The notes under the pieces are model-generated. The model saw nothing but the letters and a program-made list of their open reading frames with translations, was not told the DNA's origin and made no database searches. 64,000 bases of DNA from Chamaelirium japonicum (taxonomy: Eukaryota; Streptophyta; Magnoliopsida; Liliales; Melanthiaceae). The stretch covers positions 24,463,444 to 24,527,443 of the forward strand of contig OX393552.1 of NCBI GenBank assembly GCA_947650365.1, given 5' to 3'. Both the position numbers and the translations under genes were made by a program. Of this stretch, positions 8,601 through 59,385 are shown piece by piece (position 1 is the stretch's first letter; the number at the start of each line of letters is the position of its first letter).

Positions 8601-11600
8601 TCGTAATAAATTGAGGTCTGAGAGAGCACTTCTTTATGTAAATCCAAAAATTAGGTAATCAGAGATTCAGAATGCAGCACGAGTATCTTGTACCTTGATA
8701 GTGCTCAGTCATCTTAAGCCTTGGTCCTCACTTCTCATTGTGTTCTCATTTAAACTTTTCTTTGTCGTGCTCAGTCATCTTGAACTTTGGCCATCATTAT
8801 GTTCACATTAGAAAATAGTAAATGACTGGGTTGGTTTCTATATTTATTTGGACTACCTACTCTAAATTTCCATTCTACTCTTCTGAAAGGCTACCCAACT
8901 TTTAATTTGCTATTTTTCTTTTTATTATGTAGGGACTGTGGTAAAGGGCCCATTCTTTGTAGAAATGACAAATCAAATCTTCATAGTATCTTATGGTTAA
9001 TAAATAGAACTCGTGGCAAATATAAGAAGTCTAACATGACCTTAAACAAGCAGGACTTAATTGGTTTGTTAAGAAGAGGAAAAGCTGTGTGCTTGATTTG
9101 CTGCTTGGGCTTCAATGCTGACGATGAGGACGATAGTCATGATAATACTCTAAAAATTTAATTATGTAGCATCCTAACAAAACTTATATATGCATGACCG
9201 GCATGCTAATTGATCTTAGCTTTTTGTAGGGACATTGTGAGCACACAAAATTTATAAGTATCTTGACATAAAAGACCATGCTCTAGCAATCAATCATCTT
9301 GCGGCCTTGATCATCTTATTTTTTGTAGTTGTTAGGAGACGACGGCTAGGGTTTGGAGAGGAACAGAATGATTCCATTGAGGGACTCAAGCCCAATATAT
9401 GTACAGTAAACCCGACCCGACTATACAGTAAACCCGACCCATTACATTTACATTAACACTCCCCCTCAAACTCACGGTGGATCATGAACCGAGAGTTTGC
9501 CTAAAAAATGTCTGAAGCGAGCAGTCGTCAGTGGCTTCGTCAGAAAATCAGCAGTCTGCTCCGATGAGGGAATGAAAGGCAGGGAGATGGTGTGATCGAT
9601 AAACGCCTGGCGAACATAATGACAGTCAACTTCAATATGCTTTGTTCGCTCATGGAAGACCGGATTGCTAGCAATCTGAATAGCACTCCGGTTGTCACAG
9701 AAGAGAGGGGTCGGCCCGGATATCACCACTCCCAAGTCAAGTAGAAGACGGCGAAGCCAGACAATCTCGGCGGTGGTGGAAGCCATAGCCCTGTATTCGG
9801 CTTCGGTGCTGGAGCGAGCAACAGACTCCTGCTTCTTGCTGCGCCACGAAATCAGTGAGTCACCCAGAAACACACAGTATCCTGTAGTAGATCGACGAGT
9901 GTCTGCATCTCCTGCCCAATCTGCATCTGAGTAGGCGCGCAGCACCAACGGAGAGGTGGAGGGAAACAGTAGTGAACGGGTGATGGTGCCCCGGAGGTAG
10001 CGGATAATCCGGAGAACAGCTGCATGGTGTACTGACCGTGGAGCCTGAACAAACTGACTGACAATGCCAACAGCATGGGCAATGTCTGGCCGGGTCATGG
10101 TGAGATAGACAAGCATCCCAACCAACCTCTGGTAGCGGGAGACGTCCTGGAGCGGCTCACCATCTGTAGCTAGAAGCTTCAAATTGAGCTCCATGGGTGT
10201 GTCAGCAGTACGTGTGTCAGTAAGCGCAGCATCAGCAAGGATGTCGGAGATATACTTCTGCTGTGAGACCAACAGACCACGGGATGACCTGGCAATCTCA
10301 AGGCCCAGAAAGTAGCGAAGAGAGCCCAGATCTTTCATCTCAAACTGACTCTGGAGGTGCCGCTGGAGAGAGGCGATGGTGGCACTGTCATCCCCAGTGA
10401 TGAACATATCATCCACATAGAGGAGAAGAACTGCAATGCCCTGACTGGAGGAGCGAGTGAACAAGGCATAGTCGGAGTGACGCTCAACAAACCCGGCGGC
10501 CAGAACTGCACTGCGAAATCGCTCAAACCAGGCACGAGGGGCCTGCTTGAGCCCATAGATGGCTCGGCGCAACCGACACACGTGCCCTGGAGGAACTGAA
10601 GTGCCCGGAGGAGGAGCCATGTAGACTTCCTCGGAGAGATCACCGTGGAGAAACGCATTGGTGACATCCATCTGATGGAGAGGCCACCCTCGAGCAGCTG
10701 CCACAGCTAAGAGGGTGCGCACAGTAGTCATCCGAGCAACCGGAGCAAACGTCTCCTCGTAGTCAATCCCATACTCCTGGGAGAAGCCACGAGCAACGAG
10801 GCGAGCCTTGTGCCGCTCAATGGATCCATCAGGCCGAGTCTTGACCTTGAATATCCACTTGCAGCTAACAGGCACCACCCCGGAGGGACAAGGCACCAAC
10901 TCCCAGGTCTGGGTCCGCTGAAAAGCCTCAAGCTCAACTGACATGGCCTGCCGCCACTCTGGATGTAACGCTGCCTCACGGTACGATCGGGGCTCCCGAT
11001 GGGTGTGTATAGCAGTAAGAAAGGCCTGAAAGGATGGTGAATAGGAGACACTGGCAGAGTAGCCAGAAGAGTCAGGAGAGTCAGAGGGAGAAACAGAGTA
11101 GCCAAACCTGTCAGGAGAGTAGTCGTATCTGGCAGGAGGGTGATGTTCGCGCGCTGGGTAGCGCCGAACAGGAGCAGGATCCACGACCGGGGAGGAGGGG
11201 GCAGCAGCATCAGGTGAGGGAGTACCAGTGTGAACCGACGCTGGAGGAGGAGCTGCAGACCGACGAACATAGACACGAGTAACAGGTGGTGGTGGAGGTG
11301 GCGTGGGGGACTGAGGAGGTGGTGGTGGTGGTGGAGGTGGCGATGGAGACTGAGGAGGTGGTGGTGGTGGTGGAGTAGGCGTGGATGGGGCAACAGGAAC
11401 CGAGGGTAGAACAGGGATGTGGAGATGTGAGGAGGGCGAGGAGGATGACGAAGTAGGCAAGGAAAGATCCCGAGACTCAGGTGCAAAGTACGGAACATCC
11501 TCAACAAAGGAGTCGTGACGGGAGACACGGATCCGACGAGCTAAGGGATCATAGCAGCGATACCCCTTGTGCTCACGACTGAGCCCCAAGTGAACACACC

Positions 11601-14600
11601 TAACAGACCTCGCAGAAAGTTTGGTGCGCTCATGGGGAGGAAGAAGAACGAAGCACGTGCAGCCAAACGTGCGAAGAAGAGAGTAGTCAGGTGGACTGGA
11701 GTGAAGGCGCTCGTGAGGGGTGGCACCGGACAGAGCAGACGACGGAGTGATATTGATGAGGTGGACAGCCGTCATGACAGCTTCAGCCCAGTAGGAGTGA
11801 GGAACAGACGCAGAGAGAAGCAAGGCTCGTGCAGTCTCAAGGACATGACGATGCTTGCGTTCGGCAACGCCGTTCTGCTCATGGGTGTGGGGACATGACT
11901 GCTGGTGAAGAGTGCCGTGAGACTGAAGAATCTCACGCATCTCAGAGGAGAGATACTCCTTGGCACAATCAGACCGAAAGGTCTTGATTCGCCGACCAAA
12001 CTGGGTATGTATCATAGTGGTGAATCTCCTAAAGATGTGAGGTACTTCAGACCGATGACGCATGAGATAGACCCAGGTGCACCTAGAATAGTCATCAATA
12101 AAACACACATAATACATATAACCAGATAGAGAAGCAACAGGAGCAGGACCCCAAATATCCGAATGAACTAAGTCAAATAAAGCATCAGACTGGGAAGTAC
12201 TAGCGGAAAAAGGAAGAGCTAGATACTTTGCCAGTCGACAACCCGTACAGACAGAGAGGGGGGAGAAAGACGCTCGACCCAAAGCGCCCGAACGGAATAC
12301 GCTTTTGAGTCGATCACTCGATATATGACCTAACCTTCTGTGCCACAGGTCGGCATCAGAGGTGACAGACATGACAGACGCAACTGAAGACACATGGAGA
12401 TGGTCCAACTGGTAGAGTCCTTCTGCCCTACGGCCCAGCCCAATCCTCTGACCCGTCCGCGAATCCTGCACAACACAAACAGAAGGGGTGAAGGTGACAG
12501 TCAGGCCAGAGTCGCAAAGAGAACTGATGGAAATCAAATTAATATTAAGACGGGGGGCATGATGGACATGGGATAGGGTCAGGCGACCAGAAGGGTCAGA
12601 GGTGGTGGTGATGGAGCCACATTGCGGAATAGGGACGAGAGTCCCATCCGCAGTGCGAACCTCCTGGTGGGTGGTAGTGGGAGAACAGTCCGTGAGGACA
12701 GTGGAGTCAAAAGTAAGGTGACAGGAGGCACCCGAATCGAAGATCCATGGAGCAGTAGTACCAGAGGTGGCAGACAAGCCGTGCGCAGTCGCGGAGCCGG
12801 TGGAGGCTATGTGGCGAAGAAGGAGCTCCTCGAGGCGCTGAAGACGGTCCGGCTCAGGCGGCGAAGGAGCTGTGAGAGCAGTGGGGATCGGCGAGGCCTC
12901 TGCAGTAGCCGCTGTACCACCAAAGTGGCGGAAGGAAGACGAACCATGTCCTCGGCCCCGTCCACCTCGACCGCCGCGTCGATCGTCGCGAGAGGTGGAA
13001 GACCAGCGGGGGGATCTCTCATCCGGACCCCAGCGGGGGTTGCGTGGAGGACGTGTAGGGCACTCGCGCTTCATGTGGCCGGGCTCCTTGCAGTAGTGAC
13101 AAAACACAGCCTCATCGGAGAACCCGGCTGCCAGGACAGAGTCGGAGCTAGGAGCAAGTGGAGGAGGACGAGCGCCCTGAGTCTGAAGGCGGGTCTCCTC
13201 GTCGACCAAGGCGAGGAGAGCATCCTCGAGCCGAGGGAGTGGCTCACGGTGCAGGAGCTGGGCAGCTATGAGAGCAAAGTCCGGTCGAAGTGCTGCCAGG
13301 AACTGGTGCAGGTGGCCCTCGTCGAGGTAGCGCTGGAAATCCCGGGAGTGGGGGCAGGCACACCGCTCCGGAATCAGTGAGTCCAGCTCATGCCAGTAGG
13401 CACTCATCTGACTGAAGAAGTCCTGAATGGTACGCTCCCCCTGACGGGCAGACTGCGAGTCACAGATGAGCTGATGCCGGCGGGCGCCTCCGCGCGAGAG
13501 AAAACGGTCCCGGAGATACTCCCACATCGCGCGCGCTGTCGGAAGGCGGCCGATGGGAGCAAGGAGCGGACGAGTAACCGAGTCCAGGAGGTACGCCCGG
13601 ATGGCCTGATCGTGGCGGCGCCACGTAAGAGCAGCAACGGTGATGGCCGTGGTAGCAGTCGCTGCAGTAGATGCAGCACTGCTGGTGACAGAGGACGAGC
13701 CGGAGTAGTCAGTGGGAGGAGGATCCTCGCCGGTGATGTGACCCCACAGATCACGACTGGAGAGGGCGGCCTCGACGGTGAGGGACCAGTCAAGCCAGTC
13801 GCTGGCCGACGACAACTGAAACGCGACCGCCTTCAGCGGTGGAGAGATCGCAACGACGGACGGGACGGCTGGAGAGGCCATGGAGGATGCTGTAGGGTGT
13901 CAGGAGGTGTCGGGGGAGGGCTGTAGGTTGGCGGACGAGGGAGGCGGGGGCTGTAGGGGGCTCGGGAGGGGGTCGGGAGGGGCTGTAGGGGGCTCGGTAA
14001 GGGAAAAGGGGGGTCGGGTGGTGCGGAGGGAGGCGGAGGAGGCTGCCGGAGCAGGGGAAAAGGGGGTCGGGTGGGCCGGAGGGGGGGTCAGGTGGGCGGC
14101 CGGAGCAGGGGAGAGGGCTGGAAGGGGGCGGGTGGGCTGCCGGAGCAGGGGAAAAGGGGGTCGGGTGGGCCGGAGGGGGGGTCGGGTGGGCGGGAGGGCT
14201 GCCGGAGCAGGGGAACAGGGGGTCGGGTGGGCCGGAGGGGGGGTCGGGTGGGCGGCCGGAGCAGGGGAGAGGGCCGGAGGGGGGCGGGTGGGCTGCCGGA
14301 GCAGGGGAGAGGGCCGGAGGGGTGGAGGAGATGCCGGAGATGCCGCCGGAGGTGCTGCCGTCGCGCGGGAACCCTAGAGCTCTGATACCATGTTAGGAGA
14401 CGACGGCTAGGGTTTGGAGAGGAACAGAATGATTCCATTGAGGGACTCAAGCCCAATATATGTACAGTAAACCCGACCCGACTATACAGTAAACCCGACC
14501 CATTACATTTACATTAACAGTAGTGATCTATATTTCATGTTGTTGAGTGTACATAATCAAGACTTTGATAGATCTATTGAACTATAAGGCTTATCCGGTG

Positions 14601-23921: not shown

Positions 23922-26900
23922 ATGTCTTCGATAGATAAGAGTTGGATGCGTAATTCGAATCGGATGGGCCATGAGTATAGGGAAGGAGTCAGGAAATTTT
24001 TGGATTTTACATTTGAGCGTCTTGCACCGCTTGATGGAAAAATTATGTGTTCCTATATAGACTGCGGAAGAGTGACTAGGAAGGTTCGAGAGGAATGTGA
24101 GGTTGATCTGGTAATGCGTGGCATTGACATTAGCTATACTCGTTAGTTCTCGCATGGTGAGAAGCTAGATTCAGTCCTCATAGCAGCTCACGGTGAAAAT
24201 ACGAACACAATGATCGATGATGATAATATTAATACAGACGATGGCGATGACATACAGGTATGAAACATTATTTGCAAGGTGAAATAGGCACGGAAACACT
24301 GTCAGGTGATCAGCCTAATATTGAAGCGGACAAGTTCTACATATTGTTTAAGGATGCCGAACAATCTCTATACCTAGGGTGTGAGAAGTTTTCAAAACTC
24401 TCATTCACTGTAAATCTTCTTCATTTGAAATGCCTCAATGGTTGGAGTAATAAGTCATTTAATATGTTGGCAGAGTTGTTAAAAAAGGCTTTTCCTATAG
24501 GTGAGACAGTACCGAAATCATTCTACAAGACGAAGAAGACAATTAAAGATCTCGGACTTGGTTATGACAAAATTGATGCATGTGTGAATGATTGTATGTT
24601 GTATCGGAAGGAATACGAACATGCATAGTCGTGCTACATATGCGGAGTAACAAGATATATATAAAGAGGCGGATGTCGAGTCTAGTACCAATCGAAGGAA
24701 GAAAAATGTATCTGACAGGCTTCAGAGATTGTTTATGTTATCAAAGACTACTGAGCACATGAGGTGACATGCACGAGAACGTACAGATGACGGGGTTATG
24801 AGACATCTGGCTGACTCTTTGACGTGGAAAGATTTTGATCAGACTTATCTTGAATTCGCATGTGAAATTCACAATTGTAGGTTAGGACTTGCTAGCGATG
24901 GCTTTAATCCTTTTGGGAATATGAGTGTGTCGTACAGCATTTGGCCAGTTGTCCTAGTTCCATACAATTCACCTCCTTGGATGTGCTTAAAAAAGCCATA
25001 CACAATTCTCTCCTTGCTCATTACCGGACCCAGGTCACCTGGTAATGATATTGACATTTACTTGCAACCGTTGATTGAGGAGTTAAACGAGTTGTGGAAA
25101 ATTAGGGCCGATACGTATGATGTCTCATTGCGCCAGAATTTTCGGATGCATGTGGCACTTCTATGGACCATCAACGATATTCCTACATATGCCAACTTAT
25201 CCGGGTGGAGTACTAAAGAAAAATTAACATACTCTACATGCAATAAAGAGACATATTTATTACGGTTAAAGAACGAAGGCAAGTTCTGTTATATGGGCCA
25301 TCGAAGGTTTCTTGTTGATGGCCATAAGCGGAGGCAGAACAAAAGAGCATTAAATGGCAAGAAGGAACTTGCAAAGGCTCCGGAGCAGCTTTCGGGGGTA
25401 GAAGTCCTGTGTGAATTAGATTAGCTTGATGCGGTGATACTTGGGAAAGGCAAAAAGAAGAAAACGTATGAAGAATCTGCGCGTAAGCATAACTAGAAGA
25501 AGAGTATTTTCTTTAAACTACCGTACTAGAGCAGTCTACTCTTGCGGCATAACTTGGATGTCATGCATATCGAGAAAAATATGTGTGACAATATTATAGG
25601 AACACTGCTGAATCTCGACGGTAAGACGAAAGATAATCTTAAATCTCGTCTCGATCTTAAGGAGTTGGGCATCCGAAAATCACTTCATCCCTAAGAGATT
25701 GGGGATAAGTATGTGTTGCCAGTTGCATGCTACACCATGAGCTCACAGCAGAAGACAACCTTATGTGCATTCCTATGGTATGTGAAAACGTCGGACGGTT
25801 ACTTTTCGAATATCGCACGATGCGTCCAAGAGAACGACCGAAAGTTGTCTGGATTAAAAAGTCACAATTGTCATGTTCTTATGCAGTGATTGTTATCTCT
25901 TGCTATACGTGGAAATTTAACCGAACAGGTATCCGGTCCGTTAATTGAGCTCAGTACTTTTTTCAGACAGTTGTGCTCGAAGGTATTTAGACTGGACCAA
26001 CTTGATCAGATGGAGAGGGATATTGCAATCACATTGTGCAAGCTAGAGATGATATTTCCACCTTCCTTCTTTGATATCATGGTGCATTTGACCGTTACTT
26101 GGCAAAAAAGGCCAAACTCGGTGGCCCAGTTTATTACCACTCGATGTATTTTATCGAGAGATAATCATCTCGTCTTATTTTTTTAATATATTTAATCATT
26201 CTTGATGTATTTATCCATTAAATTTTTTCTCAAATTAGGTACTTGCAAACATTGAAATCATATATTCGTAATAAGAGTCATCCGGAGGGATCAATTACTG
26301 AAGGATACCTGGCAGAAGAATGTCTGACATTCTGCTCAAGATACCTATATGGTATAGACACGAGATTCAATCAACTTGAGCAGAACTATGACGGTAGTCC
26401 AATAAACTTCGATGAGAATCTGTCTATATTTGTCAAAATGGGTAGACCTCTAGAAGGAGGCAAAACCCATCGACTATCTGTAGATGAGATTCAACAGGCA
26501 CATATGTATGTATTGCGCCAATGTGATGAAGTGTGGTCATTTATTGAGTAAGTATTTTACGATCATTTACTCATTCTTTCAGTCCATTCATTAAATATAT
26601 GTTATAATTATAATCTAATTCATAACCTGCAATACAGGAAGCATAAAGTCATCATTAATAATCGGGGTACTCGAAATGCGCCATAATTTCATGATCGTGA
26701 ATTTTTATCATGGTTCGAGAAACACGTAAGTGTTTACATCATGACTGAATTTTATTGACATCCATTACCGAACAATAATTATGTGTTCACATCATAAATA
26801 TCATGTCTGTGATTATTATAGGTACAAGAGCTACATGGCAACCACAATCCGCTGATGAATGAGGATCTCTGGTGTTTATCTTGTAGCCTTCTGTAAGATG

Positions 26901-27745: not shown

Positions 27746-27793
27746 TACTGCTTTCAGATGGCATCACGGTCGAGGGTTTGTAGAGGTAGGGGT

Positions 27794-28545
27794 TGTAACA
27801 TCCGCCGCAAACACACAAGATATTGTCCGCTTTGCCCGTGCCCGAACGAGAACTTCCCAGGGTGGTCACCCATCCTAGTACTACTCTCGCCCGAGCACGC
27901 TTAACTACGGAGTTCTTATGAAATCCGTAGCGGCGCACGGTTTTAAAACGCGTCTTCTATGTTTAGGAGGGGAAATTATATAAGTAGCTCAGGATCTCCT
28001 TCTCTCCAAGCGATGTGGGGCTAACTCATGGTCTTGTACACCTCACCTCACCTCATCCATCTTGGCATTCCCGCCTCAGGAGTCTTGGCTCTTGGTTATT
28101 GGCCTATTGGATCTTGGTCGTCACAATCCACCCCCTTAGGGCTACACGTCCTCGTGTAGGGTTAGAAACCCCATCCCGAGGAGAACCGGCTCTGATACCA
28201 TTTTGTAACATCCGCCCCAAACACACAAGATATTGTCCGCTTTGCCCGTGCCCGAACGAGAACTTCCCAGGGTGGTCACCCATCCTAGTACTATTCTCGC
28301 CCGAGCACGCTTAACTACGGAGTTCTTACGAAATCCGTAGCGGCGCACGGTTTTAAAACGCGTCTTCTATGTTTGGGAGGAGAAATTATATAAGTAGCTC
28401 AGGATCTCCTTCTCTCCAAGCGATGTGGGGCTAACTCATGGTCTTGTACACCTCACCTCACCTCACCTCACCTCATCCATCTTGGCATTCCCGCCTCAGG
28501 AGTCTTGGCTCTTGGCTATTGGCATATTGGATCTTGGTCGTCACA
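27794..28545 (-). mobile_element. Cassandra TRIM (5S-bearing LTR), left member of a head-to-head pair
   Basis: LTRs at 27794-28125 and 28204-28545, both TGTAACATCC...GGTCGTCACA on the + strand. They enclose only 78 bp. On the minus strand the internal part starts with TGGTATCAGAGCCGG (tRNA-iMet site) and ends in AGGGGGTGGAT (polypurine). Each LTR contains 5S rRNA-like sequence, the mark of Cassandra. There is no coding capacity. The left flank GGGGT (27789-27793) is not repeated at 28546 but at 33215-33219, the far end of the partner element. The LTRs differ mainly in the number of CCTCA pentamers. Confidence 0.92.
27834..27936 (-). other. 5S rRNA-derived segment of a Cassandra LTR (not a ribosomal gene)
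   Basis: On the minus strand it reads AAGAACTCCGTAGTTAAGCG, then TGCTCGGGCGAGAGTAGTAC and TAGGATGGGTGACC, matching the conserved 5S rRNA core and its internal Pol III promoter region. The 5' and 3' ends of 5S are replaced by LTR sequence. The same segment occurs in every other Cassandra LTR here (about 28244-28346, 31946-32045, 32356-32455, 32646-32745, 33070-33170). Confidence 0.9.
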
Positions 28546-28738
28546 CATTGTGACGACCAAGATCCAATAGGCCAATAGCCAAGAGCCAAGACCCCTGAGG
28601 CGGGAATGCCAAGATGGATGAGGTGAGGTGAGGTGTACAAGGGCATGAGTTAGCCCCACATCGCCTGGAGAGAAGAAGATCCTGAGCTACTTATATAATT
28701 TCCCCTCCCAAACATAGAAGACGCATTTTAAAGCCGTG

Positions 28739-31700
28739 TGTCACGCCCCGAATCTGACTACAAGGGTAAACGAGTCAAACCCGGGGGTGATGGGGTTTTA
28801 AGGGTAAGTCAATGTTATAAGGTTGCGAGGTCGATTTTATTATTTAGTTATTTATTATTAATTTATCATTAACTACTTACTAGCTGATGAGGGACGGGTT
28901 TGAGGAGAAGCCTACCAATAACTTGGCCTTGAGTAAAGGCCTACCAGGCATGAAGCTTTGAGGAGAAGCTTACCAAAGTAATATTACTGATTCTGGCATT
29001 ATTCAGAGCATCTAGAACATGGTTCTGCAGTTATTACATAATCAACTAAAAATAATAAAACTAATTAACACCTCTAATATCCTCCCTCGATAGCTAATCA
29101 AGCTCCTCTAGGAAGCGCCTGAGAAGGATCTATGGTACCTGAAAAGAGTATGCAACAACGGAGTGAGTTTACTAGGTAAACTCAGTGAACCGTTAACCCT
29201 AAACTAACTAGGGTAAACCATAGTCATACCCTGCCTTTCTAGAAGTCTACGAGGGCGACAACATATACATACATATAAGTTCAGCTAGCTAATATGACAG
29301 TTCTACAATGGTACTACTACAACTAGTAAATGTAAGACAGATAATCATCCAGATTAAAAGTATGCAACTAATCACCGAAGGTTAGTTCTACCTACTCCTA
29401 AAGTGAACCGACATTTTTCTAACTGAGTCTGCCAACAGAATCTGGGTCCAAGTGTACCTGGAGAGCCAGAAATACCCATATGGCAATAAGGGGGCTTGGT
29501 CTTTCACCACGGGGCACTCCCACCCACCTTGCTTTTAGGGGTCATTACCCAGGGGTGGACTACTAGGCCACTAGGGGCTTTACCGCCTGCCCAACCCTGT
29601 GACCCTACCTATTTGATTCGGATTATGCATAGGCGGTGGTTCACCTCCCATCCTGTGCACTCGGGTCCCCTACCCATACCCGTGAGTAGTGAGTCTTCCC
29701 TCTGAGAAGAGAACCTCGACTGAGGAAGTACAACAACCGGTCTCTCTACTGAGACCACCGGTCTTTCCACTGAGACCACCAGTCTTTGTTGCTCAATAGC
29801 AACTGGACTGCACCATGCGACCCATGGTCACCAAATACAGTCATTCAACAGAATATAATAAATAATCAGTACAAGTATCTACTTGTTTGCATGCATCCTA
29901 GTGTGAATCTAGATTGAGTCAATCACCGTCACAGCTATCAAAATATTTCATGCATGATTATTCAGATGTAAGGGATAGTATGCCCACCTCCCACATGCAG
30001 TACCGGTTTCCCGCCTACATGCATTGGACATACTATGCCACATATGGTTTTATTTATTATTTTACAGATACAACTACAATCTACTCTAACTAGAATAGAA
30101 TTAATCATGTTCACCTGGAGAATAGCTCGGTGGTCCACGCTCGTCACGCCTATCGGTCCGGTGTACCGTCGAAGGAGAAACTGACCATCATGGTTTAAAA
30201 TGTATAAGTTGTCACATCTATAAATTACTCAAACTAGGGTTCTAAAAAGGTTGGTTTAGCGATGAGGGACCCATGGGATCCGGTCTCGCTCGAATCCGAC
30301 TTCGGTCGGAGGTTTTAGGGTCGAACCGGTGAAAACCGGTCTATGATCGGTTCAATAGGGTAAAGGGGTCTCTAGGGTTCCAAACTAGGTTCAATACATC
30401 GGCATCGATGATCTGAGCACCATGCCACTGGTTTCATCCAATTCCGAGATCGGACGAAGAATTGGTGGTCAAACCACGGTGTGCCAACTAGATCGGGCGC
30501 ATGGATAAAAAGGGATCCTAGATAGTAAAATTACTGTACCAATTCTAGTTCAACAAGTGGGTCTCTTCGATCCGGTCGAAACGCCGCCAGTTTCGTTCGA
30601 TTCCAAGATCGGATGGAGAAATGGCGGCTGAATAATTCTAGACGGTTTACGGGTCTGGTTCAGGTGAACCAGACCGGTTCACTGTTGGGCCGGGTCTGTG
30701 GGTCTGCTGTGCACTTAAGCGGTTCGGGTTGCTGTGCAGTCGGGTCGGGTTGCAGTGCAGTCGAGTCGGGTCTGCAGTATTAATATTTTCTAAACGATCT
30801 GGGATAGATCTTTAATTACAAATTGGTCCCTGCCCTGTTTCTTCTCAACGAAAAACCAGTGCTCTGGTTTTTGAGTGACGCCGGCAGCGGGGTGACCGGG
30901 TTTGGATGCGCGGGTGGTGCCCGGTCGGTCTCCCCGTATTACCCTCACATGGGAGGCGCGGGAGGAGGTGGCCGGTGTGCCGTCGGAGCCCGGAAAAGAC
31001 CTTTGCCGGAGGGGTTTGTGGTGGAGGGTGCGGCTTCGGTGGCTTGGGGTAGTGCCGGCGGTGGCTTGGGGTGATGCCGGCGGTGGCTTGGGGTGGCTAT
31101 CGTGGGATCTCCGGTGGCGTTCTCCACCCGAGTGGGCCGCGGGCAAAGGAGGAGGATGGGGTGTCGGGTTCGCGGGTAAGGGATGAGGAAGGGAGGCGGC
31201 GGGTTTTGGGTCTGGTTCGGGTGAAGGAGGATAGGAGAGAGGGAGAGCTGACCTGTGGTAGTCCGCCGGGGTTGGGGAAGGTACTCGGAGGGACTGCTGC
31301 TGCTCCTCTCTCTTCTCCCTCGATCTCTGTCTTCTTATCTCCCTCCTTTCAATCTCTAGTCCTCTCTCTCTCTACTCCGCTCCGTCCTCTCTCTCTCTCT
31401 CCCTCTCTTCGGTTCACGTAAAAAGGAGGGTAGGGGTGATGCGGTTAAGGTAAGTATGCTGGGAAGATTGGGTTGTTAGAGCTTCCTAACAAAGAGGAGG
31501 GAATTATGGAGGAGAATATTTGGTTATATCGTCTTAAATATTCCCGATCTCCCAATCTGAATTTTGAATTTTAAATACCGGGGAGGGCGATCGAGGGGGT
31601 CTAAACCCAGCCAAAAGGTTGAAAGAAAGGTCCTATGGCTGGTCGGGCTTGGTCCCGAGCCCTGAACTGTGCTCGGTTGGAACCCGGGTGTAAACCGTCG

Positions 31701-31905
31701 ACTTACCTGGCTGAAAAGAATAATCAGCCATAAGTTACAAACCGGAGGTCAGAATTGAGCACGGAAGGATCCGTTGGAAAGGTCTCATCGATACGAACAC
31801 AATAGCGCTTGGTACATATTTTTCTAACTTGCAGATCTCCCACAATAAAAGAAATACTCTAAATTTTAAAATAGCAATAACTCATTGTCCGGGTGTCGGA
31901 TCTTT
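28739..31905. mobile_element. Probable long solo LTR of a Ty3/gypsy (Tekay/Del-like) element
   Basis: About 3.2 kb without coding sequence. It begins TGTCACGCCCCGAATC, a start common among long plant chromovirus LTRs, and shows typical internal landmarks (ACTAGGTAAACTCAGTGAAC; CATGCATGATTATTCAGATG). I do not see a second copy, a primer site or a clean CA end; it runs into the Cassandra at ...GTGTCGGATCTTT. The GC-rich part near 30800-31250 carries only spurious ORFs. Family call from memory of similar LTRs. Confidence 0.5.
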
Positions 31906-32645
31906 TGTAACATCCGCCCCAAACACACAAGATATTGTCCGCTTTGCCCGTGCCCGCACGAGAACTTCCCAGGGAGGTCACCCATCCTGGTACTACTCTC
32001 GCTCGAGCACGCTTAACTACGGAGTTCTTACGAAATCCGTAGCGGCGCACGGTTTTAAAACGCGTCTACTATGTTTGGGAGGGGAAATTATATAAGTAGC
32101 TCAGGATCTCCTTCTCTTCAGGCGATGTGGGGCTAACTCATGGCCTTGTACACCTCACCTCACCTCATCTCATCCATCTTGGCATTCCCGCCTCAGGAGT
32201 CTTGGCTCTTGGCCTATTGGATCTTGGTCGTCACAATCCACCCCCCTCAGGGCTACACGTCCTCGTGTAGGGTTAGACCCCCCTATCCCGAGGAGAACCG
32301 GCTCTGATACCATTTTGTAACATCCGCCCCAAACACACAAGGTATTGTCTGCTTTGCCCGTGCCTGCACGAGAACTTCCCAGGGAGGTCACCCATCCTGG
32401 TACTACTCTCGCCCGAGCACGCTTAACTACGGAGTTCTTACGAAATAAGTAGCGACGCACGGTTTTAAAACGCGTCTACTATGTTTGGGAGGGGAAATTA
32501 TATAAGTAGCTCAGGATCTCCTTCTCTCCAAGCGATGTGGGGCTAACTCATGGCCTTGTACACCTCACCTCACCTCACCTCATCCATCTTGGCATTTCCG
32601 CCTCAGGAGTCTTGGCTCTTGGCCTATTGGATCTTGGTCGTCACA
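31906..32645 (-). mobile_element. Third Cassandra TRIM, minus strand
   Basis: LTRs 31906-32235 and 32316-32645 with an 80-bp internal part holding the primer site (CTCTGATACCA on the + strand) and polypurine tract. Its left flank TCTTT does not match its right flank CCGTG, so it did not insert alone where it now lies. Confidence 0.9.
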
Positions 32646-33219
32646 CCGTGCGCCGCTACGGATTTCGTAAGAACTCCGTAGTTAAGCGTGCTCAGGCGAG
32701 ATCAATACTAGGATGGGTGACCTCCCTGAGAAGTTCTCGTGCGGGCACGGGCAAAGCGGACAATATCTTGTGTGTTTGGGGCGGATGTTACAAATTGGTA
32801 TCAGAGCCGGTTCTCCTCGGGATGGGGGGGTCTAACCCTACACGAGGACGTGTAGCCCTGAGGGGGGTGGATTATGACGACCAAGATCCAATAGGCCAAT
32901 AGCCAAGAGCCAAGACCCCTGAGGCGGGAATGCCAAGATGGATGAGGTGAGGTGAGGTGAGGTGAGGTGTACAAGGGCATGAGTTAGCCCCACATCGCTT
33001 GGAGAGAAGGAGATCTTGAGCTACTTATATAATTTTCCCTCCCAAACATAGAAGACGCATTTTAAAGCCGTGCGCTGCTACGGATTTCGTAAGAACTTCA
33101 TAGTTAAGCGTGCTCAGGCGAGAGCAGTACTAGGATGGGTGACCTCCCTGGGAAGTTCTCGTGCGGGCACGGGCAAAGCGGACAATATCTTGTGTGTTTG
33201 GGGCGGATGTTACAGGGGT

Positions 33220-35000: not shown

Positions 35001-38000
35001 GCTAACACGCTAACTTATGAATTTTCAACGCTTAGACTCTAAATTAGACAATCGGAGGGTAAATTCTTAAAATATGTACTTAAAACTTTCTCGCAAATTC
35101 GAAATACGAAAAAATATCCAAGTATGAATTATCGGATGCAATCCAATGACGATCCGATCGAATCCAAACCAATTTCAAATCTGAAACATGCCAACTTATG
35201 ATTTGTCAACGTTTAGACTCTAAATTGGTCAATCGGAGGGTAAATTCTTAAAATATCTAATTAGAACTTGCTTGCAAGTTCAAAATATAAAAAAATTCCA
35301 AGTATGAATTATCGGATGCGATCTGATGCCGATCCGATCGAATCCAAACCAATTTCAAATCCGAAATATGCTAACTTATGATTTTTTAACGCTTAGACTC
35401 TAAATTGGTCAATCGGAGGGTAAATTCTTTAAATATCTAATTAGAACTTGCTCGCAAGTCCGAAATATGTAAAAACATCCAAGTACAAATTATCGGATGC
35501 GATCCGATGATGATCTGATCGAATCCAAATCAATTTCAAATCCGAAACACGCTAACTTATGATTTTCCAACGCTTAAACTCTAAATTAGACAGTCGGAGG
35601 GTAAATTCTTAAAATATCTAATTAGAACTTGCTCGCAAGTCTAAAATACGAAAAAACATCCAAATACGAATTATCAAATGCGATCCAATGATGATCCAAT
35701 CGAATCCAAACCAATTTTAAATCTGAAACACACTAACTTATGATTTTTCAGCGCTTAGACTCTAAATTGGTCAATCGAAGGGTAAATTCTTAAAATATCT
35801 AATTAGAACTTGTTAGCAAGTCTGAAATATGAAAAAAAAATAATCCAAGTATGAATTACCGGATGCGATCCGATGATGATCCGATCAAATCTAAACTATT
35901 TTCAAATCCAAAACATGCTAACTTATGATTTTTCAACACTTAGACTTTAAATTGATCAATTGGAGGGTAAATTCTTAAAATATCTAATTAGAACTTGCTC
36001 GCAAGTCTAAAATACGAAAAAACATCCAAGTACGAATTATCGGATACGATCCGATGACGATTCGATCGAATCCAAACCAATTTTAAATCTGAAACACGCT
36101 AACTTATGATTTTTTAATGCTTAGACTCTAAATTGGTCAATCAGAGGGTAATTCTAAAAATATCTAATTAGAACTTGCTCGCAAGTTCGAAATACGAAAA
36201 AAATCTAAGTACAAATTATCGGATGCGATTCGATGACGATCCGATCGAATCTTATCCAATTTTAAATCCGAAACACGCTAAATAATGATTTTTCAATGCT
36301 TAGTCGCTAAATTGGTCAATCGGGGGGTAAATTTTTTAAATATCTAAATAGAACTTGCTCGCAAGTCCAAAATACAAAAAAACATCTAAGTACGAATTAT
36401 CAGATGCGATCCGATGACGATCCGATCGAATCCAAACCAATTGCAAATCCGAAACACGCTAACTTATGATTTTTCAACGCTTAAGACTCTAAATTGGTCA
36501 ATCGGAGTGTCAATTCTCAAAATATCTAATTAGAACTTGCTCGTAAGTCCGAAGTACGAAAAAAAATCAAAGTACAAATTATCGGATGCGATCCGATGAC
36601 GATCCAATCGAATCCAAACCAATTTCAAATCCAAAACATGCAAACTTATGATTTTCAACGCTTAGACTCTAAATTGATTAATCGAAGGATAAATTCTTAA
36701 AATATCTAATTAGAACTTGCTCACAAATCCGAAATACGAAAAAACATCTAAGTACGAATTATCGGATGCAATCCGATGAAGATACGATCAAATCCAAACC
36801 AATCTCAAATCTGAAACACGCTAACTTATGATTTTTCAACGATTAGACTCTTAATTGGTCAATCGGAGGGTAAATTCTTAAAATAACTAATTAGAACTTG
36901 CTCGTAAGTCCTAAATATAAAAAAAACATCTAAGTACAAATTATCAAATGGGATCTGATGACGATCCGATCGAATCCAAACCAATTTCAAATCCGAATTA
37001 CTCTAACTTATGATTTTTCAATGCTTAGACTCTAAATTGGTCAATCGGATGATAAATTCTTAAAATATCTAATTAGAACTTGCTCGCAAGTTCGAAATAT
37101 AAAAAAAATATAAGTATAAATTATTGGATGCGATCCGATGATGATCTGGTCGAATCCAAACTAATTTCAAATTCGAAACACGCTAACTTATGATATTTCA
37201 ACACTTAGACTCTAAATTGGTCAATCGGAGGGTAAATTCTTAAAATATCTAATTAGAACTTGCTCACAAGTTCGAAATATAAAAAAATCTAAGTACAAAT
37301 TATCGGATGCGATTCGATGATGATCTGATTGAATCCAAACCAATTTCAAATCCAAAACACGCTAACTTATGATTTTTCAACGCTTAGACTCTAAATTGAT
37401 CAATCAGAGGGTAAATTCTTAAAATATCTAATTAGAACTTGCTCGCAAGTTCGAAATATAAAAAAACATCCAAGTATGAATTATCGAATGCGATCTGATG
37501 ATGATCCGATTAAATCCAAACTAATTTTAAATCCGAAACACGCAAACTTATGATTTTTTAACACTTAGACTCTAAATTGGTCAATCGGAGGGTAAATTCT
37601 TAAAATATCTAATTAGAACTTGCTCGTAAGTCCGAAATACGAAAAAAATCCAAGTACAAATTATCGGATACGATCCGATGATGATCCGATCCAATCCAAA
37701 CCAATTTTAAATCTGAAACACGCTAACTTATGATTTTTCAACGCTTAGACTCTAAATTGGTCAATTGGAGGGTAAATTCCTAAAATATCTAATTAGAACT
37801 TACTCGTAAGTCCGAGTTAGGAAAAAACATCCAAGTATGAATTATCGGATGCAATCTGATAATGATTCGATCAAATCCAAACCAATTTCAAATCCAAAAC
37901 ACGTTAACTTATGATTTTTCAACGCTTAGACTCTAAATTGGTTAATCGGATGGTAAATTCTTAAAATATCTAATTAGAACTTGCTTGCAAGTTCGAAATA

Positions 38001-38299
38001 TGAAAAAAAATCCAAGTATGAATTATCGGATGCAATCCTATGACGATCCGATCGAATCCAAACCAATTTCAAATCTGAAACACGCTAATTTATGCTTTTT
38101 CAACGCTTAGACTCTAAATTGGTCAATCGAAGGGTAAATTCTTAAAATATCTAATTAGAACTTGCTCGCAAGTCCGAAATACGAAAAAACATCCAAGTAC
38201 GAATTATCAGATATGATCCGATGACGATCCGATCGAATCCAAACCAATTTTAAATTCGAAACACGCTAACTTATGATTTTTCAACGCTTAGACTTTAAA
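35001..38299. repeat. About 181-bp satellite-like tandem array, 18 units, inside the CACTA element
   Basis: The marker CTAACTTATGATTTTTCAAC recurs at about 35009, 35190, 35370, 35550, and so on to 38268, on average every 181 bp. Each unit contains TTAGACTCTAAATTGGTCAA, GGTAAATTCTTAAAATATC, TAGAACTTGCTCGCAAGTC, AATTATCGGATGCGATCCG and GAATCCAAACCAATTTCAA. Units differ by several percent, mostly transitions. The array sits just after the coiled-coil exon of the second CACTA gene. No ORF. Confidence 0.93.
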
Positions 38300-38718
38300 T
38301 TATAGATATAAACGATTTTTTTATATCTATATATATATATATATATCCTATTTTTTTAACAAATACATGTTAATTGCAGTATGTGCAGCATCAAGGGAAG
38401 AGGGCACCAGCGTTGGTACCGGGCGGCGTGGGGTGGTTGAGCTAGGGCACGCAGCTTCCCTCAGTTTTGGATTGTGTAAAAATAATTTTGTGATTAATAT
38501 GTGGTAATTTTTTTGTCTTGTCTATGATTGGCTGGTATTGTGGTAATATTTGGTAATTTATGGTAATATTTGATAAATTATGGTAATATTTGATTTAGTC
38601 AATTATGGTAATATTTATGATAATATTGTGGTAATATTTGAATATATTATGGTATTGTTGTAAATCATAGCAATTAAATAACTAAATATTTTAGTAATTT
38701 TTTTAAAAAAATTCAAGT
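38300..38718. other. AT-rich CACTA 3' region with possible last exon of the second gene
   Basis: After (AT)n at 38330-38346, an acceptor-like TTAATTGCAG (to 38379) is followed by a GC-richer 60 bp ending in TAG near 38447. It may be a last exon or 3' UTR. The rest is TGGTAATATT-type low-complexity sequence. Confidence 0.35.
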
Positions 38719-52175: not shown

Positions 52176-53112
52176 TGTGGGGGAAAATCTTCGTGCCGAC
52201 CCGAAGACTCTCGCAGCACCAGTCAATTGAATGTTCGTGTTGACGTCGAAGATCGTTGGTCGATCTGTTGATCGACTGTTGATCGAAGTTGAAGCTTTTG
52301 ATTTGTAAACAGAGAGATGCAATCAGAGAGAGTTTGACACGAGAAGTGATCTCGGAGTTCAGCCGAAGCCTACGTCTCCGTGCTATAGGGTGCAACCCGA
52401 ATTCACTAACACTTATATTGAAGTGATCTCGATAGGCCGAGTATCACTGTAAACACTGATCTTTCTAAAAGAAGATCAAAGGGAGATGGTAGATCGGAAG
52501 TGTGAAATCCCAGAGCTCTGGTTCTGAAAGTCAGATCTTAGAGTGGAAAGCAGATTTGTGGATCTGGATTTCGATCCTTTTACATTCGAAGGCTCTGCTA
52601 TTTATAGGATTCCCGGGGAGAAATTCCGGGGCAAATGGCGGTTTCTGCTGCCGTATCTGGGGATCCTCCAGGCAGGGCCGGTGGGTCCCTTGAAAGCCTT
52701 CAGGGGCCCACCAGGCAGGGCCGGTGGGTCCCGTTGCGGTCTCCGGGGGCCCACCGGGCAGGGCCGGTGGGTCCCGTTGCGGTCTCCGGGGGCCCACCAG
52801 GCAGGGCCGGTGGGTCCCGCTGTGGTCTCCGGGGGCCCACCAGGCAGGGCCGGTGGGTCCCGCTGTGGTACTCGGGGGCCCACCAGGCAGGGCCGGTGGG
52901 TCCCGCTGTGGTACTCGGGGGCCCACCAGGCAGGGCCGGTGGGTCCCGCTGTGGTACTCGGGGGCCCACCAGGCAGGGCCGGTGGGTCCCGCTGTGGTAC
53001 TCGGGGGCCCACCAGGCAGGGCCAGTGGGTCCCGCTGTTGTCTCCGGGGGCCCACCAGGCAGGGCCGGGGGTCCCGCTGCTTGCAGATTTCTTACCAAAA
53101 TTTGCACCCACA
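52176..53112 (-). repeat. 3' LTR of the LARD-like element
   Basis: 937 bp. Contains ten or so 42-bp units at about 52665-53085. Confidence 0.93.
52665..53085. repeat. 42-bp GC-rich minisatellite inside the LTR (copy also at 58843-59263)
   Basis: Unit GGGCCCACCAGGCAGGGCCG plus GTGGGTCCCGCTGTGGTACTC, about ten copies. Because 42 is a multiple of three, several frames on both strands stay open and give 14-residue repeats; none looks like a gene. Confidence 0.92.
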
Positions 53113-53222
53113 GTTACCCCCTTTGTTAGCTAAGAGGCCACCTTGGCTGGCTTGGATTCGTGGTGCAAAGCTAACGACCCCCTGTCACACACGTAGAGGA
53201 GCTTTGTCGAGTGTTAGCGTTT

Positions 53223-58353: not shown

Positions 58354-59290
58354 TGTGGGGGAAAATCTTCGTGCCGACCCGAAGACTCTCGCAGCACCAG
58401 TCAATTGAATGTTCGTGTTGACGTCGAAGATCGTTGGTCGATCTGTTGATCGACTGTTGATCGAAGTTGAAGCTTTTGATTTGTAAACAGAGAGATGCAA
58501 TCAGAGAGAGTTTGACACGAGAAGTGATCTCGGAGTTCAGCCGAAGCCTACGTCTCCGTGCTATAGGGTGCAACCCGAATTCACTAACACTTATATTGAA
58601 GTGATCTCGATAGGCCGAGTATCACTGTAAACACTGATCTTTCTAAAAGAAGATCAAAGGGAGATGGTAGATCGGAAGTGTGAAATCCCAGAGCTCTGGT
58701 TCTGAAAGTCAGATCTTAGAGTGGAAAGCAGATTTGTGGATCTGGATTTCGATCCTTTTACATTCGAAGGCTCTGCTATTTATAGGATTCCCGGGGAGAA
58801 ATTCCGGGGCAAATGGCGGTTTCTGCTGCCGTATCTGGGGATCCTCCAGGCAGGGCCGGTGGGTCCCTTGAAAGCCTTCAGGGGCCCACCAGGCAGGGCC
58901 GGTGGGTCCCGTTGCGGTCTCCGGGGGCCCACCGGGCAGGGCCGGTGGGTCCCGTTGCGGTCTCCGGGGGCCCACCAGGCAGGGCCGGTGGGTCCCGCTG
59001 TGGTCTCCGGGGGCCCACCAGGCAGGGCCGGTGGGTCCCGCTGTGGTACTCGGGGGCCCACCAGGCAGGGCCGGTGGGTCCCGATGTGGTACTCGGGGGC
59101 CCACCAGGCAGGGCCGGTGGGTCCCGCTGTGGTACTCGGGGGCCCACCAGGCAGGGCCGGTGGGTCCCGCTGTGGTACTCGGGGGCCCACCAGGCAGGGC
59201 CAGTGGGTCCCGCTGTTGTCTCCGGGGGCCCACCAGGCAGGGCCGGGGGTCCCGCTGCTTGCAGATTTCTTACCAAAATTTGCACCCACA
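58354..59290 (-). repeat. 5' LTR of the LARD-like element
   Basis: Same length and, but for one observed base, same sequence as 52176-53112. Confidence 0.93.
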
Positions 59291-59385
59291 GGGCTGGATG
59301 AAACGGACAGCTATGATCGCCACACGTCATTTTGTGCGAATGAATCAGTAAGAGCTTCGGGGTAAATAGTATTTTCCCTCATAAG

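Follow-up and report, generated by a model that had tools for sequence, protein, structure and literature searches.

Inverted pairs of terminal-repeat retrotransposons in miniature (TRIMs) that share one target-site duplication are already in print as an architecture. The legend to Fig. 2C of Gao et al. (2016; PMC4717578) describes two inverted maize Zma-SMART elements within a single CTTCA duplication (559 bp for the pair and 280 bp for a single element), and the arrays of that figure were confirmed by polymerase chain reaction and sequencing. Tandem arrays of Cassandra are likewise known, as had been noted at first for the DNA described here; in the part of Kalendar et al. (2020; PMC7215508) that deals with them their origin is debated, recombination between long terminal repeats (LTRs) and template switching to concatenated complementary DNA (cDNA) being the two candidates. 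The present analysis concerns two inverted Cassandra elements, A and B, which meet at their 5' ends in a stretch of 64 000 nucleotides from Chamaelirium japonicum (contig OX393552.1, positions 24,463,444 to 24,527,443 of the forward strand), the whole of which is called the window. Very probably a concatemer of two Cassandra cDNAs, formed by joining of cDNA ends before integration, was inserted there once.

Both elements are complete (Table 1), B measuring 4.67 kb because a 3.9 kb compound, X+C, splits its 5' LTR at CCGTG. Elements A and B and the Cassandra C of that compound fit the criteria for Cassandra, with LTRs of 330-342 bp, internal domains of 78-80 bp, the TGGTATCAGAGC primer site, which we take to be of the initiator methionine transfer RNA (tRNA-iMet) type, and a G-rich tract. 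The five matches to the Rfam model of 5S ribosomal RNA that reached the gathering threshold in the window all lie inside these elements, namely in the two LTRs each of A and C and in the 5' LTR of B; the 3' LTR of B fell below that threshold. Terminal TG...CA and a 5 bp duplication are present for A+B and for X+C as units and not for A, B or C singly. The bases on the two sides of A (GGGGT and CATTG) match at 0/5 positions and those on the two sides of B (CACAT and GGGGT) at 1/5, and a second duplication was sought and not found. GGGGT flanks the pair as a whole, the outer ends of which read TG...CA. The first-pass annotation had stated as much, and its coordinates for A, CAT, B and GGGGT all hold; its proposal that 5'-5' joined DNA was inserted once, through the two outer U5 (unique 5') ends, is supported by the one shared duplication, the intact outer LTR ends, the lack of inner duplications and the occurrence of the same architecture elsewhere with different duplications. 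The pair fits an inverted TRIM array of two complete, inverted elements within a single outer duplication; it is not a head-to-tail array of the L3I2 type, the units of which run one way and share an LTR, for its elements face opposite ways, have all four LTRs complete and are separated by a spacer of 3 bases. Beyond GGGGT the flanking sequences are not each other's inverted copy; when one GGGGT is kept, they read on in a single frame, which opens with an ATG at 27758 and spans 30 codons. This lends slight support to GGGGT having been the target site, as no intact relative for comparison turned up.

The genome assembly (1.52 Gb, 3253 contigs) was searched for junctions using exact patterns of the LTR ends with at most 30 free bases between them, so that the counts are lower bounds. 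There were 25 5'-5' places (the window included), 29 3'-3' places and 65 3'-5' places, and a backwards control pattern gave 0 matches for each of the three junction types; a similarity search added five more 5'-5' places with altered ends (L012, L014, L015, L016 and L028). A genome search for other 5'-5' junctions had been suggested by the first-pass annotation, in which the inverted dimer was expected to be unusual; in this genome it is not. The ratio 25:29:65 agrees with the 1:1:2 of random joining (chi-square 1.29, p 0.53), as do 23:27:59 after local copies had been merged (p 0.60) and 20:23:58 when only spacers with a cDNA mark were counted (p 0.30), and ends seem, from these counts, to be joined regardless of which end they are. 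The arms of other composites hold head-to-tail arrays (for example, L047, L048 and L059), and the many joined copies in the genome hint at the origin of clustered Cassandra arrays. Some places are local copies: L050, L051 and L052 (C3:32.55-32.74 Mb) are near-identical three-unit alternating composites about 90-100 kb apart, a local segmental triplication, and a 3'-3' pair whose 16-base spacer lacks a cDNA mark is found in three copies at steps of about 5 kb (C9:65647098, 65652112 and 65657139).

Apart from the window, 29 places were examined, each with about 4 kb of surrounding sequence, and the outer ends of 22 chains and their arm pieces were bounded by hand; at L057 the left end was taken as 883 and not 685, actgcttc preceding both. 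The 22 chains comprised 20 of the 30 5'-5' places and two 3'-3' chains. L053 was added afterwards, and L051 and L052 (near-copies of L050) and L054 (an independent case) were left out of the 5'-5' scoring. The outer bases were shared at 5/5 positions in 19/22 chains, against 2/462 for left and right flanks in a mismatched-locus control, both of the latter coming from L009 and L011, each of which has a CATAT duplication. L053 and its continuation L090 form a chain of six units between two copies of CGGAC, a minus element being joined through AT to a plus array (four LTRs, three internal domains) and this through ATT to a further minus element; the ends of a 3'-3' place at C6:64518752, which were the only part compared, share CTTAG. 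With these two, 21/24 5'-5' or 3'-3' chains share an exact 5 bp outer duplication. L050 consists of more than two units and has one duplication, GTATG, and shared outer bases were seen by eye at L019 (GCCCC) and L021 (TAATG), outside the 24-chain count. Judged by eye, single Cassandra elements have a 5 bp duplication at L017, L023, L025 and L026 and lack one at L018, L020 and L027; these loci were recovered via a query containing ATTGTG and are not a random sample. No joined partner of the last three was found within the 2 kb examined.

The bases at the junctions were compared with those inside the element, where GGTGGAT precedes the 3' LTR and AAA plus the primer site follow the 5' LTR, the same in nearly every unit read. 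Those internal bases are what a linear cDNA is expected to end in, whereas target DNA borders the LTRs of a chromosomal copy. Spacer tallies were compiled by hand from the junction pattern matches. The 5'-5' spacers are AT, ATAT, ATAAT, ATTAT, ATCCAT, ATGGAT, ATCCAAT, ATTCTGGAT and similar, AT standing at the end of 19, at the start of 17 and at either side of 20 of the 23 distinct ones. The 3'-3' spacers are AAATTT and close variants, with AAA at the start in 17/29, TTT at the end in 21/29 and either in 23/29; a piece of the primer site is carried by 8/29, and those with neither AAA nor TTT are the three tandem copies with the 16-base spacer and three others. Among 59 distinct 3'-5' spacers, 44 start with AAA, 54 end with AT and 40 do both, the commonest being AAAAT (nine places). 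Judging from these tallies, the LTR-flanking internal bases in most spacers are the mark of linear cDNA ends. In the CAT of the window, AT would be the dinucleotide on the polypurine-tract side of the U3 (unique 3') end of B and C an added base; AT is the dinucleotide that lies between the polypurine tract and the LTR inside the element and so points to a cDNA end.

The LTRs of A and B differ from one another by 16-19 substitutions over about 332-342 bases, with nine fixed differences, at which the two LTRs of A agree on a state that neither LTR of B has, so that the joined DNA is not the exact palindrome that was first supposed. Because the arms stem from different source copies, a self-copied palindrome and a folded-read artefact were both rejected for A+B. 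Divergence between the LTRs of one arm (7/332 in A and 11/332 in B) is compatible with a single insertion date, LTR counts of this kind being too noisy for dating because C, a third copy that has a 7-base LTR deletion of its own and is necessarily younger than B, shows 11/330. Among the composites in which each arm has two or more LTRs, at least one fixed difference between the arms was present in 11/15 and at least three in 9/15. The median distance was 1.73% for LTRs of the same arm, 2.65% for the arms of one composite and 2.75% between composites. At L045, L050, L058 and L068 a 113-base LTR insert is present in both LTRs of one arm and in none of the facing arm. The Cassandra subfamily with this insert is represented at L010, L011 and the four loci just named, among others; at L010 the insert is present in only one LTR of the element, which is unexpected under normal reverse transcription. 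At L062 and L047 the LTRs match crosswise, an inner one having 0-1 differences from the outer one in the facing arm, which suggests that recombination between the inverted arms may have flipped the middle.

The compound inside B is flanked by CCGTG as a unit, and C has no duplication of its own (TCTTT against CCGTG). The left end of X is a true element end, 39/39 other scored matches to 28700-28938 (best 40 of 1844) starting at most 3 bases from 28739, and its right end is a break, at which 39/39 other scored matches to 31726-31905 (best 40 of 1643) end at 31901-31902; two more distant relatives (L018 and L024) continue into other sequence there. Because the matches of the X family stop at 31901-31902, the TTT beside C belongs to C as its own AAA. 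In the X family, LTRs are offset from one another by about 6.4 and 7.7 kb, and no protein domain was found in X when six frames from the window were compared with Pfam. A broken cDNA of another family appears to have been joined to the unprocessed U5 end of C and inserted with one duplication. An independent insertion of X that was later cut down by chance beside C was rejected, since the break is followed by exactly the AAA of C and CCGTG flanks X+C as a unit; so was an ordinary chimeric reverse transcript as the origin of X+C, since C has plain Cassandra sequence in its two LTRs. Other broken partners are a 77-base Cassandra LTR fragment joined via TTT to a U5 end (L055), an X-like fragment between Cassandra pieces (L021) and a half-element (L019). 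The X family is very abundant in the genome, and three LTR copies 7.7 kb apart in one direction at C4:28991863-29010578 look like a three-LTR tandem of this family.

Table 1. Features of the paired Cassandra insertion and its surroundings (window positions).
Feature	Positions	Strand	Remarks
GGGGT	27789-27793	none	Left copy of shared target-site duplication
Cassandra A	27794-28545	minus	Complete LTR-internal-LTR, 332 + 78 + 342 bp
Cassandra A, 3' LTR	27794-28125	minus	332 bp; U5 end is left outer end
Cassandra A, internal domain	28126-28203	minus	AAA before primer site TGGTATCAGAGC; AT after polypurine tract
Cassandra A, 5' LTR	28204-28545	minus	342 bp; U3 end is inner end
CAT	28546-28548	none	5'-5' junction spacer between A and B
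Cassandra B	28549-33214	plus	Complete; 5' LTR split
Cassandra B, first part of 5' LTR	28549-28738	plus	CCGTG at its end
CCGTG	28734-28738	none	Left copy of duplication around X+C
X	28739-31902	minus	Broken LTR of high-copy LTR retrotransposon; left, true element end; right, break
TTT	31903-31905	none	AAA of the U5-side cDNA end of C; outside X
Cassandra C	31906-32645	minus	Complete
Cassandra C, 3' LTR	31906-32235	minus	
Cassandra C, internal domain	32236-32315	minus	
Cassandra C, 5' LTR	32316-32645	minus	
CCGTG	32646-32650	none	Right copy of duplication around X+C
Cassandra B, remainder of 5' LTR	32651-32792	plus	
Cassandra B, internal domain	32793-32872	plus	
Cassandra B, 3' LTR	32873-33214	plus	342 bp; starts TA not TG; U5 end is right outer end
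GGGGT	33215-33219	none	Right copy of shared target-site duplication
Copia-type polyprotein frame	9475-13899	minus	Open, 1475 residues
tnp2-type transposase frame	24768-25421	plus	Transposase_21 (Pfam), E 1.4e-87
Satellite-like tandem repeats	35004-38378		About 18 copies of a 180 bp unit
Direct copy 1	52176-53174		
Direct copy 2	58354-59352		6178 bases from direct copy 1

Given the tnp2-type transposase frame, the pair probably sits within the gene next to it in a CACTA transposon. Elsewhere in the window, the copia-type frame encodes gag, integrase and reverse transcriptase domains, and the two direct copies, which are about 100% identical over most 300-base pieces and contain 43 bp tandem repeats, are possibly the LTRs of a recent element.

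The course of events that we propose is as follows. RNAs of several Cassandra copies would be reverse transcribed to linear double-stranded cDNAs, complete ends of which would read (GG)AT-TGTG at U3 and TTACA-AAA at U5. These ends would be joined before integration in any orientation, probably via host DNA end joining. In some cases a base would be gained or lost on joining, or the partner would be broken, X being such a broken cDNA, from another LTR family. Integrase would then insert the concatemer once via two intact outer LTR ends (two U5 ends in a 5'-5' pair and two U3 ends in a 3'-3' pair), giving one 5 bp duplication. In the window, A and B would have been joined U3 to U3 with CAT between them and have landed at GGGGT; later C, its U5 end joined to the broken X, would have landed in the 5' LTR of B at CCGTG. 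As a candidate detail, a 5'-AT overhang produced by integrase at U3 ends would self-pair and could account for the spacer AT at L046 and L053. Joining before integration, host end joining as the joiner and integrase as the inserter are what we infer from the anatomy, the shared outer duplications, the distinct sources of the arms, the cDNA-end bases at the junctions and the random orientation counts. Host end joining is favoured over other joining routes because broken partners are present, and joining after the integration of two molecules is disfavoured because of the long chains and the share of 3'-5' junctions. On balance we also lean towards a general form of this proposal, in which Cassandra cDNAs, before they integrate, are routinely ligated at random and occasionally joined to broken cDNA from other retrotransposons. 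Such mixed-orientation concatemers would be inserted by integrase whether or not their two outer LTR ends were of the same kind, and the junctions would preserve, like fossils, the chemistry of the cDNA ends. Arrays would then arise by concatemer insertion as well as by recombination, and partners such as X may point to elements active in the same cells, perhaps the helper of Cassandra.

Several observations weigh against joining before integration followed by a single insertion. The CAT of the window matches cDNA-end bases on the B side only. Four composites (L047, L048, L049 and L062) are without a fixed difference between their arms. The outer bases match at 4/5 positions at L015 and L058, where one arm of each also matches at 4/5 for a duplication of its own, and at 3/5 at L056. 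L054 represents two insertions, its right element having its own GCGAC, and a broken outer end makes L014, L016, L028, L044, L060 and L061 uninformative. Both outer ends were readable at 3/16 sampled 3'-3' places and at 0/5 sampled 3'-5' places, so that the evidence for single insertion comes from 5'-5' and 3'-3' pairs.

Among other explanations, it is possible but unlikely that reverse transcriptase in the particle jumps from one cDNA end to another and copies on, the joined molecule being integrated once. One-base additions are typical of such end-to-end jumping, and spacers such as ATAAT and ATTAT show them; the tiny RNAs could also be co-packaged. Template switching is named as a possible source of Cassandra arrays in the relevant part of Kalendar et al. 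(2020; PMC7215508). The broken partners (X, the 77-base fragment of L055 and the half-element of L019), however, fit break repair more easily, and the GGAT-type ends in spacers (ATCCAT, ATGGAT and ATTCTGGAT) are kept whole on single sides.

We give a little less credence still to the co-insertion of two separate cDNAs, in which integrase would have paired one U5 end of each and the free U3 ends would have been sealed later by the host. Retroviral integrases do pair like ends in vitro, and such an event yields exactly A-CAT-B with one duplication. It would, however, favour like-end pairs, whereas the number of 3'-5' junctions is that expected of random joining, and chains of at least three units (L050 and L053/L090) would still require prior joins.

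A self-copied palindrome, in which a cDNA strand folded at its U3 end, primed its own copy and was inserted as a perfect palindrome, is refuted for A+B and highly improbable as a general account, though it may apply to L009 and L049. These are among a few composites with near-identical arms (L009, 0-1/342; L049, 2-4/335-342), but A and B, with their nine fixed differences, are as distant as copies of different composites, the arms of four composites differ in the 113-base insert and the flanks beyond GGGGT are not mutually inverted. Two independent insertions that lost their inner duplications, or an ectopic exchange that left matching flanks by chance, are highly improbable. L054 shows that close independent insertions occur; a matching outer 5-mer together with deletions ending at the LTR ends would nevertheless be needed in 21/24 chains, against 2/462 in the control, and the spacers hold element-internal and not target bases. 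On the outer-duplication scoring, independent insertions were rejected for A+B. Inverted repeats are a known weak spot of genome assemblies, but an artefact (a folded read or a missed adapter) is hardly conceivable for a structure whose arms and flanks differ, whose 5 bp duplication is common to both sides and whose pattern recurs with different duplications on many contigs.

The more than 100 junctions in one genome favour the end joining of finished cDNAs before integration as a third route to arrays. If this is true, integrase in plants is able to use a pair of U5 ends, or a pair of U3 ends, for insertion, and duplication-based dating and solo-element annotation overlook a class of insertions. 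The junctions would, moreover, reveal the start of plus-strand synthesis (AT or GGAT) and that of minus-strand synthesis (AAA, sometimes with a primer-site tail) without biochemistry. A full-text literature search, mostly of non-subscription papers and thus weak evidence, found no account of TRIM concatemers in random orientation that carry cDNA ends at their junctions and no pre-integration end-joining mechanism for TRIM or Cassandra arrays.

Compared with the closest described systems, the pair in the window is like that of Zma-SMART in consisting of inverted TRIMs with a single duplication; it belongs to another TRIM family and species, and the account of the maize pair, as far as the figure legend and related passages go, gives no junction bases, 5'-5' or 3'-3' orientation, frequency or mechanism (PMC4717578). 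Like the head-to-tail Cassandra arrays it is a multi-unit Cassandra, but the units of those arrays, as described in the passages concerned, share one LTR and run in one direction, without inversion, abutting complete LTR ends or cDNA-end bases (PMC7215508). Complete cDNA ends joined by host end joining are also the basis of the two-LTR circles of retroviruses and Ty1, as these are presented in the relevant sections of PMC12786077, and the 3'-5' junction TTACA-AAA-AT-TGTG is the expected product of a join of that type; such circles, however, are closed and derive from one molecule, whereas here different molecules would have been joined and inserted with a duplication. The cDNA multimers of yeast Ty1 resemble the Cassandra chains in that several cDNAs enter the genome as one array, but the passages of PMC7524711 on them ascribe them to homologous recombination and do not include inverted pairs.

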